This document shows positions 1,468 through 9,644 of a stretch of DNA of 48,013 bases, in pieces. Under the pieces are notes generated by a model that was given only the letters and a program-made list of their open reading frames with translations, ran no database searches and had not been told where the DNA came from. A program made the translations under genes and the position numbers. The stretch is taken from the NCBI GenBank assembly GCA_943704415.1, contig CALSCO010001705.1, positions 1 through 48,013 on the forward strand, read 5' to 3'. The DNA is from Parvularia atlantis (taxonomy: Eukaryota > Opisthokonta > Rotosphaerida). Positions within the stretch are counted from its first letter, which is position 1. The number at the start of each line of letters is the position of its first letter.

Positions 1468-4400
1468 TCAGCGGCGCATGCGCGACGCGAGCTCAGACAT
1501 CATCGGGTTCGCGGGCGCCGCCCCGCCACCGCCGCCCGACGACGATGACGCCTCGCCACCGACCATCGGCTTGGACTTGTCGACCGTCACAACCTTCTTG
1601 AGCTTGCGACCCTGGTGAATCTGCGACAGCAGCGCGCCGCGGTCGCCCTCCGCCTGCGCGGGCGGCGCTAGTGCCGGCGGAGGCGGCGGTGGTGGTGCTG
1701 GAGCCGCCGGAGCCGGTGCTGGAGGTGCAGGCGCCAACGGAGGTGACGGAGCCGGTGCCGGTGCCGGGGGTGGAGCAGGCGCAGGAGCAGGCGCGGATCC
1801 AGCCGCACTAGCCGCCGCACCAGCCGACGTGCCACTCGTCGCCGCGAGAACAGACGGCCGCGAGGCGCCCCCGCCGCCGAGGCGAGGGCCGGTGTGGCCC
1901 CACTCGTCCTCGAACGGCATGAACGAGGCCGGCCGCACCTCGCCCCCCACCGGCCGCGTGTCAACGGGCAGCGCGTCCTCAGATAGACCACGGTTGCGCA
2001 GCACCTCCTGGCCGCGCCGCGCAAGGAAGCCTGAGGCCTCCAGGTTCTGCAGCGCCCGCGCCTCCTGCTCGGCCGCCAGCTCGGCCCGCCGCCGCCGCGC
2101 GTCCTCCAGCTGCTTGCGCCGCTTCTCCTCGCGCTTGGCCTCGAGCTCAGCGCGGCGGCGGTCGCGGCGGTCGCGCGGCCGAGGCGCCGTCGCAACGCCG
2201 CTTGCAGCCTCGACGTCCGCTGCACCAGCACCACCACCCGCGACGCGCTTGAAAAAGTGGATCTGACGGCCGAGCAGCGCCAGCACCTCGATGCCGAGCG
2301 CCATCGCCGCCACCGCCAGCCCGGCCAGGAACAGGAAAAACACATAGTCGTCCAGGCTCGCGCGGTCGGCCGGGCTGCGCGCGCGCACAGTCAGCCGCGC
2401 CGTTTGCTCCGCAGCAACCGTGCACGCACGTCTTGGCCGTGTACATGCCGTAGCCAAACAGCACATACACGTGCAGCAGCACGAGCAGGCCGATGTCGAC
2501 AAACTGCACCCAGACCAGCTGGGCCGGCACACCCGGTTCAGACGGCTCGCGCACGTGGCGCGCGAGGGCAGCGTTACCCGGTACGGCCGGATCACGTTGG
2601 TGAGCAGCGCCGAGATGATGATGACCGCGGCGATCGACGCGGCCGATGTGCCGGGCTGCGTGACTGAGCCGCGACGCGTGCGCGTGAGCTGCGGTGCCGC
2701 CCACGCTATACGCACCGAGAAACACAGCCAGCACGACCATGAGCAGCCGGCGGAGGTGGATGACCCAGTTCCACCAAAACTTGTCGGCGGCAAAGCTGCG
2801 CGCGCACCAGGCGTGAGCGACAGTGCGTCGCAAAGAGAGCGCGCGCACACCGGTACAGCGCCGTGATGAGCATGTGGCTCAGCATCGAGCTTTCGGGCAT
2901 CGTGCCGTCCGAGCTGATCTCGAGCGCCAGCGGGCCGAGCAGGTAGCGCTGGCGCGCACACGCACCGCTGTCAGCACGGCAGCCAGTCCCCACCCCACCG
3001 CCGACACCTTGTACGCGTAGTATGTCGCCTCAAACAACGGCAGCCCGCCCGAGTACACCAGGATCGCCACGACCGACAGCGGCAGCAGCGCTTTGTGCCC
3101 GTCCGCGGCGCACAACAGGTCTGCGCGCGTGCGCCGTCAGCGCACGGCCACGCAGCAGCTGCGAGCAGCGCGCACCGGGTGAGCGCGAAAAGTATAGCGT
3201 ATCGTCCGGCAGCGCACGGCAGTCGTAGTACAGGAACGCGGCGATGGTGAGCGGCATGTACGAAAACTCGACGTACGTGAGCAGCGCCGACAGGCACCCT
3301 GCCGGTAGCTGCGTCAGCCCGCGCAAGGACCGTGTGCGGCGCCGCGCACGCTTCAGCTGCACGGCCTGGTCGACCGACGTCCACAGGAAGCGGTCGGCGA
3401 TGAGCCGGTTGTAGGCGTACGTGCCCAGGAGAAGGCAGCCGGAGAGGAACGCAAAGACGAGCGGCATCACGAGCGTGAGGATCCTGGCGCACGCGCGCAC
3501 ACGCGAGGGCACGCGTCAGCGCCCCGGGCCCCGGCCCCCGGCGCGCTGTGTACCACAGCACGGGCCACGGCGACGCGCCCGAAAAGGCGCACTCAAACTG
3601 CGACAGCTCCCAGTTGATGTTGACGACCGAGAGGATCTGCGGCCGGGCGGCCCTGAGCCCCCGCACAGTGCACGAGCGCGCGCGCCGGCGCACCTCCAGG
3701 AAGGTCTGCGTCGTGTTCGAGTAGCCCAGGTTGATGAGCACGAGGAACGCCGTGTCTTGCAGGAAGAAGATCACGATCGGCAGCAGATGCAGCTTTGTCC
3801 ACACTGCGCCACGCGCCGCGTTAGCCCGGTAGCGTGCGCGCCAAAAGCGCACGCTTCGTCAGGTAGAACCACGCGATCCAGCTCAGGAACATCAGCACCA
3901 CGGCCAGCGCGAACGACGCCGAGCCAAAGTTGCACGGCAGGCACCTGATGCGCATCATCAGGCCCCTTCCCACATCACACGCCACACGCGCACCTCAGGT
4001 TGAGCTTGAAGTAGCCCGGCGCGCACTGCCCGCACAGCCGGCCCGTGTAGCCGTCCGCGCAGACGTTGTCGCCGCCGAGGCACGCGGCCGGCACGAGGCA
4101 CTTTGCAAACAGCGACGCGTCCAGGCTGCGCGGGCTGTCAGACGCGCCGCGCCGAGCACATCGCCGCGAGCACACACCGGTAGTAGCTGGCGGCCGCGGG
4201 CGGTACGACGACATCGGGCGCGCCGCACGTCGCTCCGGTCGGGCACGGCTGGCAGCTCGGCGCGGCGCCGTACGTGCCTGCGCGCGCCGGCCGGTCGGTG
4301 CTGGCTGCGTCCGCCTGCACCGCGCGCGCGCTGACGCACCGGCCGGGCACGCGCACACGAGACCTAGCAGCGGCGCGCTGAGGGTGCCGTTGGCGCACGG

Positions 4401-4910
4401 CAGGCACGTCTGTGAGTCGCGGTCGTAGAACGACGCGTCGTCGCACGTGAACAGCGCCGTCACCGTCACGTTCACGTCCTGCGCGCCGCCCGCCGTCAGC
4501 GCGGCGGCCCTGCCTGCACGCCGTGAGGCAGGAACCTCGACCAGTTCAACGACGTAGCCGCCCGCGGCCGTCGCGCGCGAGATCTGCACCACACCCGCTG
4601 GCTCGCCCGGCACGGGTACGCTCACGTAGCTCGCGCCGGCGGGCAGCCCCGTCGCCGTGAAGCTGACGTCGCCCTCTGCCGAGCCGCCGTCTGCCGTTGT
4701 GTCAACAACAGCGCGGGACGCGGCGCGACGCGACGCACTCGCGCCGAGCGTGATCCACAGCGCGCCAGCCGCCGGGAAGCCCGCCACGGCGACGCCGCTG
4801 CCGTTGCCCAGCAGCCCGGCGTACACCGCGCCCGGCAGCAGCGTCGGCGTGTCCGCGGCGCACACGCCCGCCGCGGCCAGCACCGCGACCACGAGCGCGA
4901 CAAGCCGCAT
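1468..4910 (-). CDS. Cys-rich multi-TM receptor-like protein with polyproline and WH2 actin-binding tail
   Basis: Domain order from the start at 4910: signal peptide (RLVALVVAVLAAAGVCA), an extracellular beta-rich stretch, then GCC2/GCC3 (ephrin-receptor-like) Cys-rich segments with CPAGTYGAAPSCQPCPTG and CGQCAPGYFK. The first three introns are near 4278-4337, 4175 and 4000. Roughly eight to ten TM segments follow (for example SFALAVVLMFLSWIAWFYL, IVIFFLQDTAFLVLINLG, FVDIGLLVLLHVYVLFGYG, FFLFLAGLAVAAMALGI). The cytosolic tail has a charged coiled coil (AELEAKREEKRRKQLEDA), a long Pro-Ala tract (about 1660-1810), and near 1560-1645 a WH2 motif, ALLSQIHQGRKLKKV, close to the verprolin/WIP type, ending in MSELASRMRR. 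WH2 binds G-actin and polyproline often binds profilin, so I infer a membrane-anchored actin regulator. The exact exon count through the TM region is uncertain; the tail itself is one uninterrupted frame. Confidence 0.75.
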
Positions 4911-4931
4911 CGCGTCGCGCGAATTCCCGTC
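4911..4931. promoter_or_regulatory. 21-bp spacer between divergent start codons
   Basis: Only 21 bp separate the minus-strand ATG (4910) of the WH2-tailed receptor from the plus-strand ATG (4932) of the secreted ependymin-like protein. No TATA or CCAAT motif is visible here. Core promoters must lie inside one or both coding regions, or one start is misplaced, though both proteins begin with convincing signal peptides. Confidence 0.6.
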
Positions 4932-5613
4932 ATGGCGCCCGTTGCTGTGGTCGCCATCGCGCTGGTTGCGCTCGTCGTTGGGGGCGCGCAGGCGCAGACG
5001 CCGCCGGTGCTGCTGCCGGCGTACGAGTGCACGTTCAACGCGAGCGGCATGGTGCCGCAGCCGTTCAGCTACGTCGGCCGCCTCTGGTACGACTACGCGC
5101 AGCTGTTCACGCGTCAGGACGTCGTCGTCGGCACGGCCACGTCGACGTCGTACCTCGACTACACGGCGGCGCTGGGCTACTCGGTGCAGAACGGCATGTG
5201 CTACGTCTACAAGAACACGAACGAGATGACCCCACCGGACGTGCTCCTGCTCTGCGAGACCGTGCGCTTCAACGGCACGACGACGATCAAGGGCCGCCCC
5301 GTCGAAGTTTGGTGCGTCGCGCTTTCTGCGGCACACGCCTGCTCACGCGCCCGCGCCTGCGCACAGGGAGGCCTACGACCCGTACTGGACGCTGGGCTCG
5401 ACGCTCGTGCAGTACATTGACCGCGCGACGTCCCAGCTCGTGCGCGTGATCAGCACCAGCCGCGGCATGGCCGTCACCATCGACTACGACGACTACGTCG
5501 TCGGCACGGTCGACCCGCGCATCTTCGCCATCCCCGACAACTGCGAGATTGCCGAGCGCCCGCCCCGGCCGCTCGACGTGCTGCCCCGCGCGCCGTTCGG
5601 CCTTCCGGCCTGA
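4932..5613 (+). CDS. Secreted ependymin/LolA-like fold protein (tentative)
   Basis: About 208 residues from two exons (intron 5312-5366 with GCTCAC branch motif). The start MAPVAVVAIALVALVVGGAQA is a clear signal peptide with cleavage near AQA. The body has a pattern I associate with ependymin-related/LolA-like secreted proteins: an early Cys (YECTFNAS), alternating hydrophobic strands, RLWYDYAQ, a Cys near NGMCYVY, GRPVEVWEAYDP, IDRATSQLVRV, and a terminal FAIPDNC. No membrane segment follows, so the product is probably secreted or lysosomal. Family assignment rests on strand pattern and cysteines only and is modest. It is divergently paired, 21 bp apart, with the WH2-tailed receptor, which hints at co-expression but proves nothing. 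A Pro-rich tail (ERPPRPLDVLPRAPFGLP) closes the protein. Confidence 0.6.
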
Positions 5614-5695
5614 TCGGGACGCCGTCGACAGTTTGTGTTTCCCTTGCTCTCTCTCTCTGTGTGCACGCTCGGAGAAGACCCGCCGACCGTGAGTA
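5614..5695 (+). promoter_or_regulatory. Pyrimidine-rich leader/promoter of the SEC20 gene
   Basis: The 82 bp between the ependymin-like stop and the SEC20 ATG hold a CT-rich run (CCCTTGCTCTCTCTCTCTG, 5641-5659), resembling a pyrimidine-rich transcription start. A GTGAGTAA directly before the ATG also resembles a splice donor, so a 5'-UTR intron cannot be excluded. Confidence 0.35.
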
Positions 5696-6684
5696 ATGGC
5701 GCCGGAGCTGGCCCCGCGCATCAACGCGCTCGCCAAGCGCACGGTGCGCGCCGCGGACGCACGCTTGGTCGGCCCGAGCTGACGTAGGCACACACCAGAT
5801 GGAGGTCGAGGCTGCCGTGCAGCGCCTCAGCGCCGACGCGGCGGGCGACGTGGCGCGGCTGGTCGAGGGCATCTGGTCACAGCTGCGCGCGTTCGAGCAA
5901 GAGCACCGCGTGCGTGCGCGCACCGCCTTGCGCGGGCTCGCGCCGCTCACGCCTGCGCAGACGCTGGCTGGCGAGGCCGAGCAGCTGGACGACGAGACGG
6001 TCAAGACCGCGATGCTCGAGAAACTGCGCCTGCGCAAGCAGATGCACCGGCAGTGCGGCTCGCGCTCGTGACACGGCGCGGCGCGCTCACCCGATGCGTA
6101 GGCTCGTGGTCTCGCTGCGCGCGGCCAACCTGCAGCTGCGCGACCGCGTCGCCCAGCAGCAGGCCCTCGAGCGCCAGCAGCTGCTCAGCGGCGGCACGCG
6201 CGTGGCCGAGGAGCGACAAAAGCTGTGCGGCGGTCGCGCGCGCGCTCGCGGATCCTCACCGCCCTGGCGCAGGACCAACGAGGCGCTCATCCGCACAGCT
6301 CAGTCGGTGACCGAGATGATGCGGCGCACGACTGGCCTGCTGCACCAAGAGGTCGAGCGCAGCAAGCAGACGGCGCAGGTGCTGGACGAGTCGTCGCGCA
6401 CGCTTGCGAGCACGCGCCACGAGGTGTGTTGCCGGCGCACAACGGGTTGTTCGCTCAGCCACTTGAGCGCGCGCACGCGCCAGCACGAGACGCTCCGCAG
6501 CACCGTGGGCGAGTCGCAGACGGCCGTGTCGCAGCTGTTCCAGCGCGACTGGGTCGACAAGCTCCTCCTCGGCTTTGCCCTCGCCGTCTTTGCGCTCGTC
6601 GTGCTCTACATCGTTCAGTCACGCCTCTTCCCCGGCGCGTTCTCTCTCTGGTCGGCCGCACGACCCGCCGGCGCTGCGCCGTGA
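5696..6684 (+). CDS. SEC20: Sec20/BNIP1-type SNARE
   Basis: Tail-anchored Q-SNARE for Golgi-to-ER retrograde fusion. Five exons with introns 5744-5798, 6053-6101, 6225-6272 and 6424-6483 give exactly 777 nt (258 residues), between human BNIP1 (228) and yeast Sec20 (383). The N-terminal half is helical and heptad-rich (VRLRKQ-type coiled coil, LRAANLQLRDRVAQQQALE). The Sec20 SNARE motif reads TEMMRRTTGLLHQEVERSKQ, then VLDESSRTLASTRHEHETL. It is followed by RDWVDKLLLGF and a C-terminal TM anchor (ALAVFALVVLYIVQSRL), the order expected for the Sec20 family. There is no ER-retrieval HDEL at the end; the tail is short and Ala/Pro-rich. The stop is 40 bp from the convergent CX9C gene. Confidence 0.88.
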
Positions 6685-7085: not shown

Positions 7086-7211
7086 CTGCGCGGCGCGAGC
7101 GCGTGAGCGATCGTGCGGGCACGGCGGCGAATGCAGATGCGGCATCCGACGGCCATGCGCGGCGGCGGCATGGGGCGGCTACACACAACAAAGTTGCATA
7201 TTTTCACCCAA

Positions 7212-9644
7212 ATGGCAGAACCCACCGCGCCGCTGCGGCGCGCGCTCGGCGCCGAGCTGTTTGAGCGCGTGCGCCGGGCGCGCCTACTCATGGTCGGCGC
7301 GGGCGGGATCGGCTGCGAGCTGCTCAAGGACCTGGTCATGGGCGGCTTCGAGGGGCACATCGAGGCGCGCACGCCGCGCATGCCCCGCACGGCCCGTACG
7401 GCCCGCAACGCTCACGCTCGCCGCGTCCGCGCCGCGCAGGTGGTCGACCTCGACACGATCGACCTGTCCAACCTCAACCGCCAGTTCCTCTTCCAGAAGC
7501 AGCACATCTCCAAGTCCAAGGCGCACGTCGCGCGCGAGTCGGCCCTGCGCTTCAACCCGGCCGCGCACATCGTCTCGCACCACGCGTCCATCATGGACAG
7601 CCAGTTCTCGCCCGAGGTACACGCGCCTGCTGCTCACGCCGCCCGTCCCGACCAACGCCGCGGCGCAGTTTGTCAAGCAGTTTGACGTCGTGCTCAACGC
7701 GCTGGACAACCTCGCCGCCCGCCGCCACGTCAACCGGCTCTGCCTCGCCGCCGAGGTGCCCCTGGTCGAGTCGGGCTCGGCCGGCTACCTCGGCCAGGTC
7801 ACCGTGATCCGCAAGGACACGAGCGAGTGCTTCGAGTGCCAGCCCAAGCCCGTGCCAAAGACCTTCCCCGTCTGCACCATCCGCAGCACGCCGAGGTGCG
7901 TGCAGCGCGGCACGCGCTGCGTGTGTGTTTGTCCTGACATTCGCTCGGCCCAAGCGCGCCCATCCACTGCGTCGTCTGGGCCAAGGACTACCTGTTTGCG
8001 CAGCTCTTCGGCAAGGCCGCGGACGACGAGGACGACGCACCGATCAACCCGAACGCGGAGAACGGTGGGCGCGGTCGGCGTGCGCGCGTTGGCGTGTGCT
8101 CACCACAAAGCGACGGCAGCCGAGGAGCTCCAGGCCCTGCGCCACGAGGCATCGGCCCTGCAGCGGCTGCGCGACCAGCTGGGCACGCCCGACTTTGCCG
8201 AGAAAGTCTTTCGCAAGGCACGCTACTCTGCGCGCGGTCGCGGGCGCCGCAGCTTCGCGCTGACCGGCGAAGCGCAGGTGTTTGATGCGGACGTGCAGCG
8301 CCTGGCGCGCATGGCCGACATGTGGAAGAGCCGCGCACCGCCATTGCCGCTGAGCTTTGACGCTCTCGCGCGCGCGCTCTCAAGCGGCGAGGCGCCCGCT
8401 GCGGGCGCGCTGCCCGACCAGCAGCTGTGGAGCATGGCCGTGAACGCGCGCGTGTTTGCCGAGAGTCTCTCGACGCTGTCGGCGCGCTACACCGCGTGCG
8501 TGCCGGGCCGTGTACACCTCTCCGCACCTTGACGCACGCACCAGAAGCGCGGCCCGCCCAGAGTGGTCGTTCGACAAGGACGACGCAGACATGCTCAACT
8601 TTGTCACGGCCACGACCAACCTGCGCGCGACCGTGTACGGCATCGACCGCCAGACGCGCTTCGCCGTCAAGTCGATGGCGGGCAACATCATCCCGGCCAT
8701 CGCGACCACGAACGGTGCAGTGCGCGCCTGCGGCCTGCGCGCCGCGCTCTGACGCACGCTGGCGCAGCCGTCATCGCCGGCCTGATTGTAATGGAGGTGT
8801 TCAAGCTGCTCGCGGGGCGCATGCGTGAGTGCACGACAACGTACATCGCGCACGGCGGCCGCCGGCCCAAGGCTCGCGCCGTTGCCGTGGTGGCATCCGG
8901 GCGCTGACTACGCCCGGCCGCCAGCTCCTCGTCAAAGAGAAGCTGCTCGAGCCCAACCGGCAGTGCTTCGTGTGCCAGAACCGGACGGTGACGCTGGACG
9001 TAAACGTCGGCACGTGGCGCGCCCCCACCGCGCCCGCTCATGCGCCTAACTCGCGCACCCGCAGCGACCGCCACGCTACGGCTCCTCGTGCAGGCCGTGC
9101 TGCAGAAGCAGCTGGCAATGGTCGAGCCGTCGGTGACGCAGGCGACGGCCGGTGGCGGCGGGCGGTGCGTGTGCTGCCGCACCAGTGGTTCCGCGGGCTG
9201 AGCACGCGCGCACACCAGGATGCTCTACGACGTTGAGTTTGACGACAACCTCGACAAGATGCTCAAGGCGCTCGGGATAGGCGACGGCGCGCTGCTGAGC
9301 GCCTCGGACGACACACAAGACTACCGCCTGGTGATGCACATCCGCCACCGGTGCGTGGCTCGCCAGGCCGCAGGGGCGCGTGTCGTCGCTGAGCGCCACG
9401 CAGCGACTTTGCCGACGCCGAGACCCTCTTTGAGCTGCACGGCGGGAGTACGCCGCCCGAGCCCGCCACCACGCCTGCGCCGACCGCTGCGCCCACATCT
9501 GCGCACGCGACCGGCAAGCGCAGGGCGCCCGACACGGCCGAGGGGCCGGCCGATGTCAACGACGACGAGACGATGGACCTGGTCGAGATCACCGAGCAGG
9601 ACGTGGCCGTAACCGCAAAGCGCGCGCGCACTGATGTGCTGTGA
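7212..9644 (+). CDS. UBA2: SUMO-activating enzyme catalytic subunit UBA2/SAE2
   Basis: E1 subunit that adenylates and thioesterifies SUMO. About 600 residues in roughly a dozen exons. The nucleotide-binding motif is [15 protein letters not shown]; then [16 protein letters not shown]; the catalytic cysteine lies in [12 protein letters not shown], followed by [19 protein letters not shown]. The second half keeps [41 protein letters not shown] and a zinc-type CFVC. The C-terminal ubiquitin-fold segment ([21 protein letters not shown]) is followed by an acidic, Ser/Thr-Pro tail and a basic KRARTDVL. At least three introns are GC-AG (7365-7439, 8218-8277, 8872-8924); two are stop-free multiples of three. 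GT-AG examples are 7617-7668, 7896-7954 and 9165-9218. The stop lies 17 bp from the convergent scaffold gene. Confidence 0.93.

Follow-up and report, generated by a model that had tools for sequence, protein, structure and literature searches.

The window analyzed in this study, a stretch of 48,013 nt of Parvularia atlantis (assembly GCA_943704415.1, contig CALSCO010001705.1), contains on its minus strand a spliced gene with a predicted coding span of 1468..4910, which begins with an ATG at 4910 and ends with a stop codon at 1470-1468. In the gene model its product, designated P0001 (893 aa), is encoded by 15 exons separated by 14 GT-AG introns of 43-70 nt each. The exons were read from the frame and the GT-AG sites, and some of the splice sites represent a choice among in-frame options; for the intron located after residue 473, two other donors would yield proteins of 896 or 907 aa. 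A preliminary description of this DNA had assigned a membrane part and a WH2 motif to a single minus-strand gene (4910-1468), and both the spliced model and the domain matches presented below are in agreement with this assignment.

The next gene on the same strand (145-1451, minus) encodes a protein with a THH1/TOM1/TOM3 domain (E 8.1e-25), and its candidate ATG at 1451 is placed 16 nt past the stop codon of the WH2 gene. On the other side, a small divergent gene (4932-5613, plus strand), encoding a secreted-looking protein, has a candidate ATG at a distance of 21 nt from that of the WH2 gene; its first exon produced no Pfam match. Further genes of the plus strand are Sec20-like (5697-6684; E 5.4e-12) and ThiF/E1-like (7107-7685; E 3.4e-23).

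The N terminus of P0001 is a signal-peptide-like hydrophobic segment (residues 1-18; 4857..4910, minus strand, as are all features of this gene), with a hydropathy of 2.34 over residues 1-19. A Cys-rich region (residues about 140-259; 3932..4445), recognized from the sequence and by Pfam, includes a DUF7630 domain (PF24633; residues 217-259), which is encoded by positions 4109-3932, spanning an intron, and was detected with E 8.1e-9 (35.9 bits, over the cut-off of 27). The gene model and hydropathy are therefore consistent with the signal peptide and Cys-rich ectodomain that had been proposed. The Cys modules had been ascribed to GCC2/GCC3, an identity that is not supported, since the profile of this family (PF07699; GCC2_GCC3, now Ephrin_rec_like) gave no match in P0001 at E up to 10 and DUF7630 was found instead. 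PF07699 does match other proteins of the same genome. In the Pfam scan of P0001 at E up to 0.1 two families were identified, DUF7630 and WH2.

The ectodomain is followed by a predicted nine-pass membrane core (residues about 264-625; 2275..3931), delimited by hydropathy, loop charges and alignment to a paralog and other relatives. The number of transmembrane (TM) segments, within the range of eight to ten given previously, is a reading of the hydropathy profile, in which the segment limits were set by hand and a single segmentation was used; a multi-pass core is nevertheless well supported. With this nine-segment reading, the five inner loops contain 16 K+R residues vs 9 D+E, the corresponding numbers for the four outer loops being 4 and 11. 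Because the inner loops are positive and the outer loops negative, the tail of P0001 is predicted to be located in the cytosol. A comparison of the core profile with sequences of solved structures returned one match only (E 0.82), which was taken as chance.

We also searched for relatives of the core. In the genome of P. atlantis (G000) a search with the core produced 12 matches, of which 11 represent the gene itself and one, weak, lies on contig C545. A paralog on contig C508 (locus L029, about 3590-5650, plus strand), comprised of the core and a short tail that lacks WH2, was found through DUF7630, where it scored below the cut-off in the genome scan. A model of the C508 gene was built that runs from the region encoding the Cys-rich part as far as the stop codon. 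Its predicted product exceeded the cut-off for DUF7630, with no further Pfam family matched at E up to 0.1, and was 27% identical to the P0001 core across 424 positions (pairwise E 1e-32). The introns at residues 350 and 395 of P0001 coincide with C508 introns in both column and phase; a third intron agrees in column but not in phase, and no coincidence was seen for the ten remaining introns compared. TM9 can be aligned between the two proteins, and the part of P0001 that does not belong to the family thus begins downstream of TM9, within an uninterrupted exon. Another member of the family, on C600, was found through PF07699. The weakly matching C545 locus (L020:1197-5243) is an intron-free frame of 1,348 aa, in which an ANF-receptor ectodomain and Ephrin_rec_like modules are joined to the same core; this layout is reminiscent of a class C GPCR but with a different core.

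Outside this genome, none of the 7,988 candidates scored in a homology search with the whole P0001 reached an E of 0.001, a failure that was probably caused by the Pro/Ala tract of the tail using up the words. A search with residues 140-645 identified one relative (P0002), and a five-row family profile added two more, P0003 and P0004. In profile comparisons the family alignment covers 407 columns of P0003 (probability 99.6) and 363 columns of P0004 (99.0), values that are not independent, because both proteins had been found with the same five-row alignment. P0003, which aligns to the family profile, matches TRP (PF06011) with 38.1 bits (cut-off 28.5). No match to PF06011 was obtained in P0001 (Pfam, E up to 10). 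The scan of its genome with this profile was likewise negative, but so were all the control genomes. NCBIfam, scanned at E up to 0.1, contained no match for either P0001 or P0004, and an AlphaFold2 model of P0003 built with three sequences (mean pLDDT 32.6) was useless. These alignments place the core in a larger family of membrane proteins that are Cys-rich and possibly TRP-like.

All six relatives (P0002-P0004 and the proteins of C508, C545 and C600) share with P0001 a Cys-rich module, whose DUF7630-like end is placed directly before TM1, and the same multi-pass core. Their ectodomains differ, including an ANF receptor in C545, TIG in P0002, and Ephrin_rec_like in P0003, C545 and C600. They also differ from P0001 at the opposite end, as WH2 was seen neither in the outside relatives (0/3, Pfam) nor at the other family members of the same genome (0/3). 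Scoring was in each search confined to the candidates with the most words in common, and the absence of a WH2-bearing relative is therefore weak evidence; since no relative with the same layout was found, conservation gives the function of the fusion no support. Behind the TM part of P0004 there is a TIR match of 22.7 bits (under the cut-off of 28), which may mean that the family has another type of cytosolic output. The preliminary description knew of no family with such a layout. For the layout as a whole this was not contradicted by the literature, judged by titles, but the membrane core is itself a member of a family seen in other sequences.

The last exon (1468..2374) encodes TM9 together with the complete tail, in a single frame uninterrupted by stop codons. 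Its translation (301 aa) was scanned with Pfam and modeled from the single sequence with AlphaFold2 (mean pLDDT 65.2), which predicted the TM9 helix with confidence. Downstream of TM9, a charged helix of 60 residues (660-719; 1993..2172; residues 68-127 of the exon) was predicted, with pLDDT mostly of 87-97 in this block. The charged stretch had been described as a coiled coil; its charge and one long predicted helix are borne out, and the coiled coil itself is doubtful because of poor heptads, no register having more than 4 strongly hydrophobic residues at the 19 a/d positions. It may form a single helix instead. The Pro/Ala tract reported in the tail is also present (residues about 785-831; 1657..1797) and includes a run of seven Pro. 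Its G+C content is 0.94, 0.86 and 0.60 at the first, second and third codon positions, respectively; the third position varies while the other two do not, a pattern which fits that of translated sequence.

These features bear on the question of whether membrane part and WH2 tail could derive from different genes or mRNAs and have been joined by an error of the gene model or of the assembly. The genes are closely packed at this locus, with the next candidate start codon (1451) only 16 nt beyond the stop, and the gene model was read from the genomic sequence. The shared open frame had been used as an argument against such an artefact. That TM9 and the tail occupy one exon (2374-1468) was confirmed, but a frame of 301 open codons is expected from the base composition with a probability of ~0.009, which is not very rare, and its openness alone is weak evidence. 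Against an artefact, TM9 aligns to the core family, it is followed by the tail without a stop, and the codon-position pattern of the Pro/Ala tract fits translation. Moreover, if the tail had a gene of its own, this would have to begin within the exon, and the membrane gene would require a further exon elsewhere that escaped detection. An artefact of this kind is, in our opinion, quite improbable.

The WH2 motif (PF02205; residues 834-860; 1570..1650), consisting of a helix and LKKV, is located close behind the Pro/Ala tract. The preliminary description had placed WH2 at the end of the tail, and the Pfam profile identified it there with 41.3 bits in the whole P0001 (cut-off 23.1) and 43.2 bits in the last exon alone. 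A scan of the 16.25-Mb genome with the same profile listed seven matches, each over the cut-off, the best of them (46.8 bits) at the window locus; none of the 14 control genomes contained a match. Given these scores, a chance match is excluded. An alignment of the seven loci revealed a hydrophobic helix followed by an LKKV-type motif; in the single-sequence model of the P0001 exon this short helix was predicted with a pLDDT of only 55-57. Among the sequences of solved structures, 12 distinct ones matched the whole P0001 at E up to 1, including a WH2 peptide of WIP (2a41; E 0.008). The top match in this search, to proline-rich stretches of p53 (E 0.0058), was taken for low complexity. The surroundings of the other six WH2 loci are in most cases Pro-rich or Gly-rich. 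A strict scan of the 3,200 bases upstream detected 6 hydrophobic segments in the window gene vs 1, 0, 0, 1, 0 and 0 at the other loci; of the seven WH2 loci listed, the window gene alone shows a visible link to a multi-pass protein.

No second WH2 was recognized in P0001 by its profile (Pfam, E up to 10). The protein ends with a segment starting with ANPMM (1471..1512), recognized from the AlphaFold2 model and from alignment, whose function is putative; it contains a short helix (residues 290-300 of the exon; pLDDT about 71). The NPM motif and a helical-looking end are common to three of the seven WH2 tails, namely those of the window gene, L023 (C245) and L026 (C363). Shuffled sequences yield a C-terminal NPM at frequencies of 0.008, 0.001 and 0.024, and the motif was picked after being seen, so this sharing carries little weight. 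The order of elements in the tail resembles that of Ena/VASP, and the short basic terminal helix might be likened to the F-actin-binding helix that follows the WH2-like site there; an Ena/VASP-like end or a degenerate second WH2 would, at this level, be resemblances only.

The short, amphipathic-looking helix placed after WH2 might also be regarded as the C-like part of a WASP-family-like Arp2/3 activator built into a receptor, and the Arp2/3 subunit ARPC2/P34-Arc is present in the genome (E 2.4e-17). The C terminus, however, reads RMRR, the terminal helix is followed by neither an acidic stretch nor a Trp, and the only Trp of the tail (residue 750) is found upstream of the Pro tract, which makes an Arp2/3 activator highly improbable.

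Polyproline placed before WH2 is an arrangement known from factors which take up profilin-actin and monomers; polyproline with just one WH2 is more usual for delivery of monomers or for elongation. Profilin is encoded in the genome (E 3.1e-23). We lean slightly towards the view that P0001 is a receptor-like scaffold which gained a polyproline-WH2 output, concentrates profilin-actin and monomers at the membrane, and favors filament growth when clustered. The Cys-rich ectodomain and nine-pass core would have been inherited from the wider Cys-rich family, the cytosolic end having acquired the polyproline-WH2 module. Binding of a ligand at the surface, or clustering, would gather several tails, the proline tract of which would recruit profilin-actin, while WH2 would hold an actin monomer by its barbed-end cleft. 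The clustered tails could then hand over monomers to barbed ends in the vicinity, in a similar way to Ena/VASP when it is clustered. We infer ligand sensing, clustering, and binding of profilin and actin from the layout of P0001; likewise, the net effect may be elongation, nucleation or anchoring.

According to the portion of the literature considered, the assembly of actin by Ena/VASP is enhanced by clustering, likely on membranes, BimA, a membrane-bound protein having WH2 motifs as well as a proline-rich stretch, needs oligomerisation, other nucleators have WH2 in tandem, and nucleation by such proteins is tied to oligomerisation, clustering or tandem WH2 motifs (PMC9569871). As P0001 has polyproline and one clear WH2, a membrane-tethered monomer feeder appears likelier than a nucleator in the strict sense. 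Of the membrane-embedded actin nucleator suggested earlier, the membrane core with a WH2 tail is retained; with one clear WH2 and no acidic Arp2/3-binding end, nucleation itself is not supported.

Several features argue against the favored reading: the single clear WH2, the poor heptads, the lack of a conserved layout, the low-to-moderate confidence of the predicted WH2 and C-terminal helices, and the negative result for TRP in P0001 itself. The same protein might only tether or buffer actin, holding monomers or linking the membrane to the cortex and starting no filaments, as could be expected with no second HMM-level WH2, no acidic end and weak heptads. A parallel is provided by the receptor HPO-30, whose tail, in the part of the work consulted, binds actin and inhibits polymerization (PMC10411975). 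The Pro tract with its run of seven Pro close before WH2 has, in contrast, the order usual for elongation or nucleation factors, seen also in BimA and Ena/VASP as outlined in PMC9569871, and a purely tethering tail is conceivable rather than likely. A broader proposal, which we find unlikely, is that P0001 senses a ligand as a channel or receptor, possibly TRP-like, and that its cytosolic tail is itself the actin-assembly factor, so that one polypeptide would unite outside signal, core and actin output. P0001 would then be one case of a modular scaffold family in which ectodomains (ANF, TIG, Cys repeats) and cytosolic outputs (WH2 in P0001, TIR perhaps in P0004) are exchanged.

Cells usually link surface receptors to actin via chains of adaptors and GTPases. 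If the favored reading, a scaffold with a monomer-delivering tail, is true, a receptor with its own polyproline-WH2 tail would constitute a very short route from an outside signal to actin, with no separate adaptor, and a widespread, uncharacterized Cys-rich membrane scaffold could be rewired by exchange of its tail.

The tail of P0001 resembles WASP/WAVE in having polyproline followed by WH2, and differs in lacking an acidic C-terminal region. With Ena/VASP it shares the succession of a proline-rich stretch, a WH2-like monomer site and a short basic helix near the end; P0001 differs from Ena/VASP in that it has no EVH1/WH1, no C-terminal tetramerisation coiled coil, and is covalently placed on a membrane core. 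Matches to WH1/EVH1, GBD, SHD and FH2 were absent from P0001 in Pfam at E up to 10.

BimA of Burkholderia, an analogue and not a relative, is similar in that a proline-rich stretch precedes WH2 in a membrane-anchored, clustered protein; judged by the description in a review, it is a trimeric autotransporter of bacterial origin which has two or more WH2 motifs and whose activity requires a coiled coil (PMC9569871). HPO-30 of Caenorhabditis elegans is, like P0001, a multi-pass receptor-like protein, with a disordered cytosolic tail that acts on actin directly; in the sections of the report considered, it is described as four-pass and claudin-like, binding F-actin and the WAVE complex, with monomer binding not detected (PMC10411975). 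In the literature on membrane proteins with WH2, judged by titles, we found no multi-pass core or receptor combined with WH2, and the claim that the layout corresponds to no described family was not contradicted.

Plant class I formins are comprised of a signal peptide, an extracellular domain, a TM segment, and a cytosolic proline-rich region with an actin-assembly domain, and thus unite, like P0001, an extracellular part, a membrane segment and a proline-rich actin output in one protein; as drawn in that source they are single-pass with an FH1-FH2 output, whereas P0001 is predicted to be nine-pass with WH2 (PMC9232206). Membrane-anchored actin assembly, as far as these accounts describe it, already has precedents in class I formins and BimA. 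On the sequence evidence from one genome, the novelty of P0001 would lie in the combination of a multi-pass core with a WH2 output.
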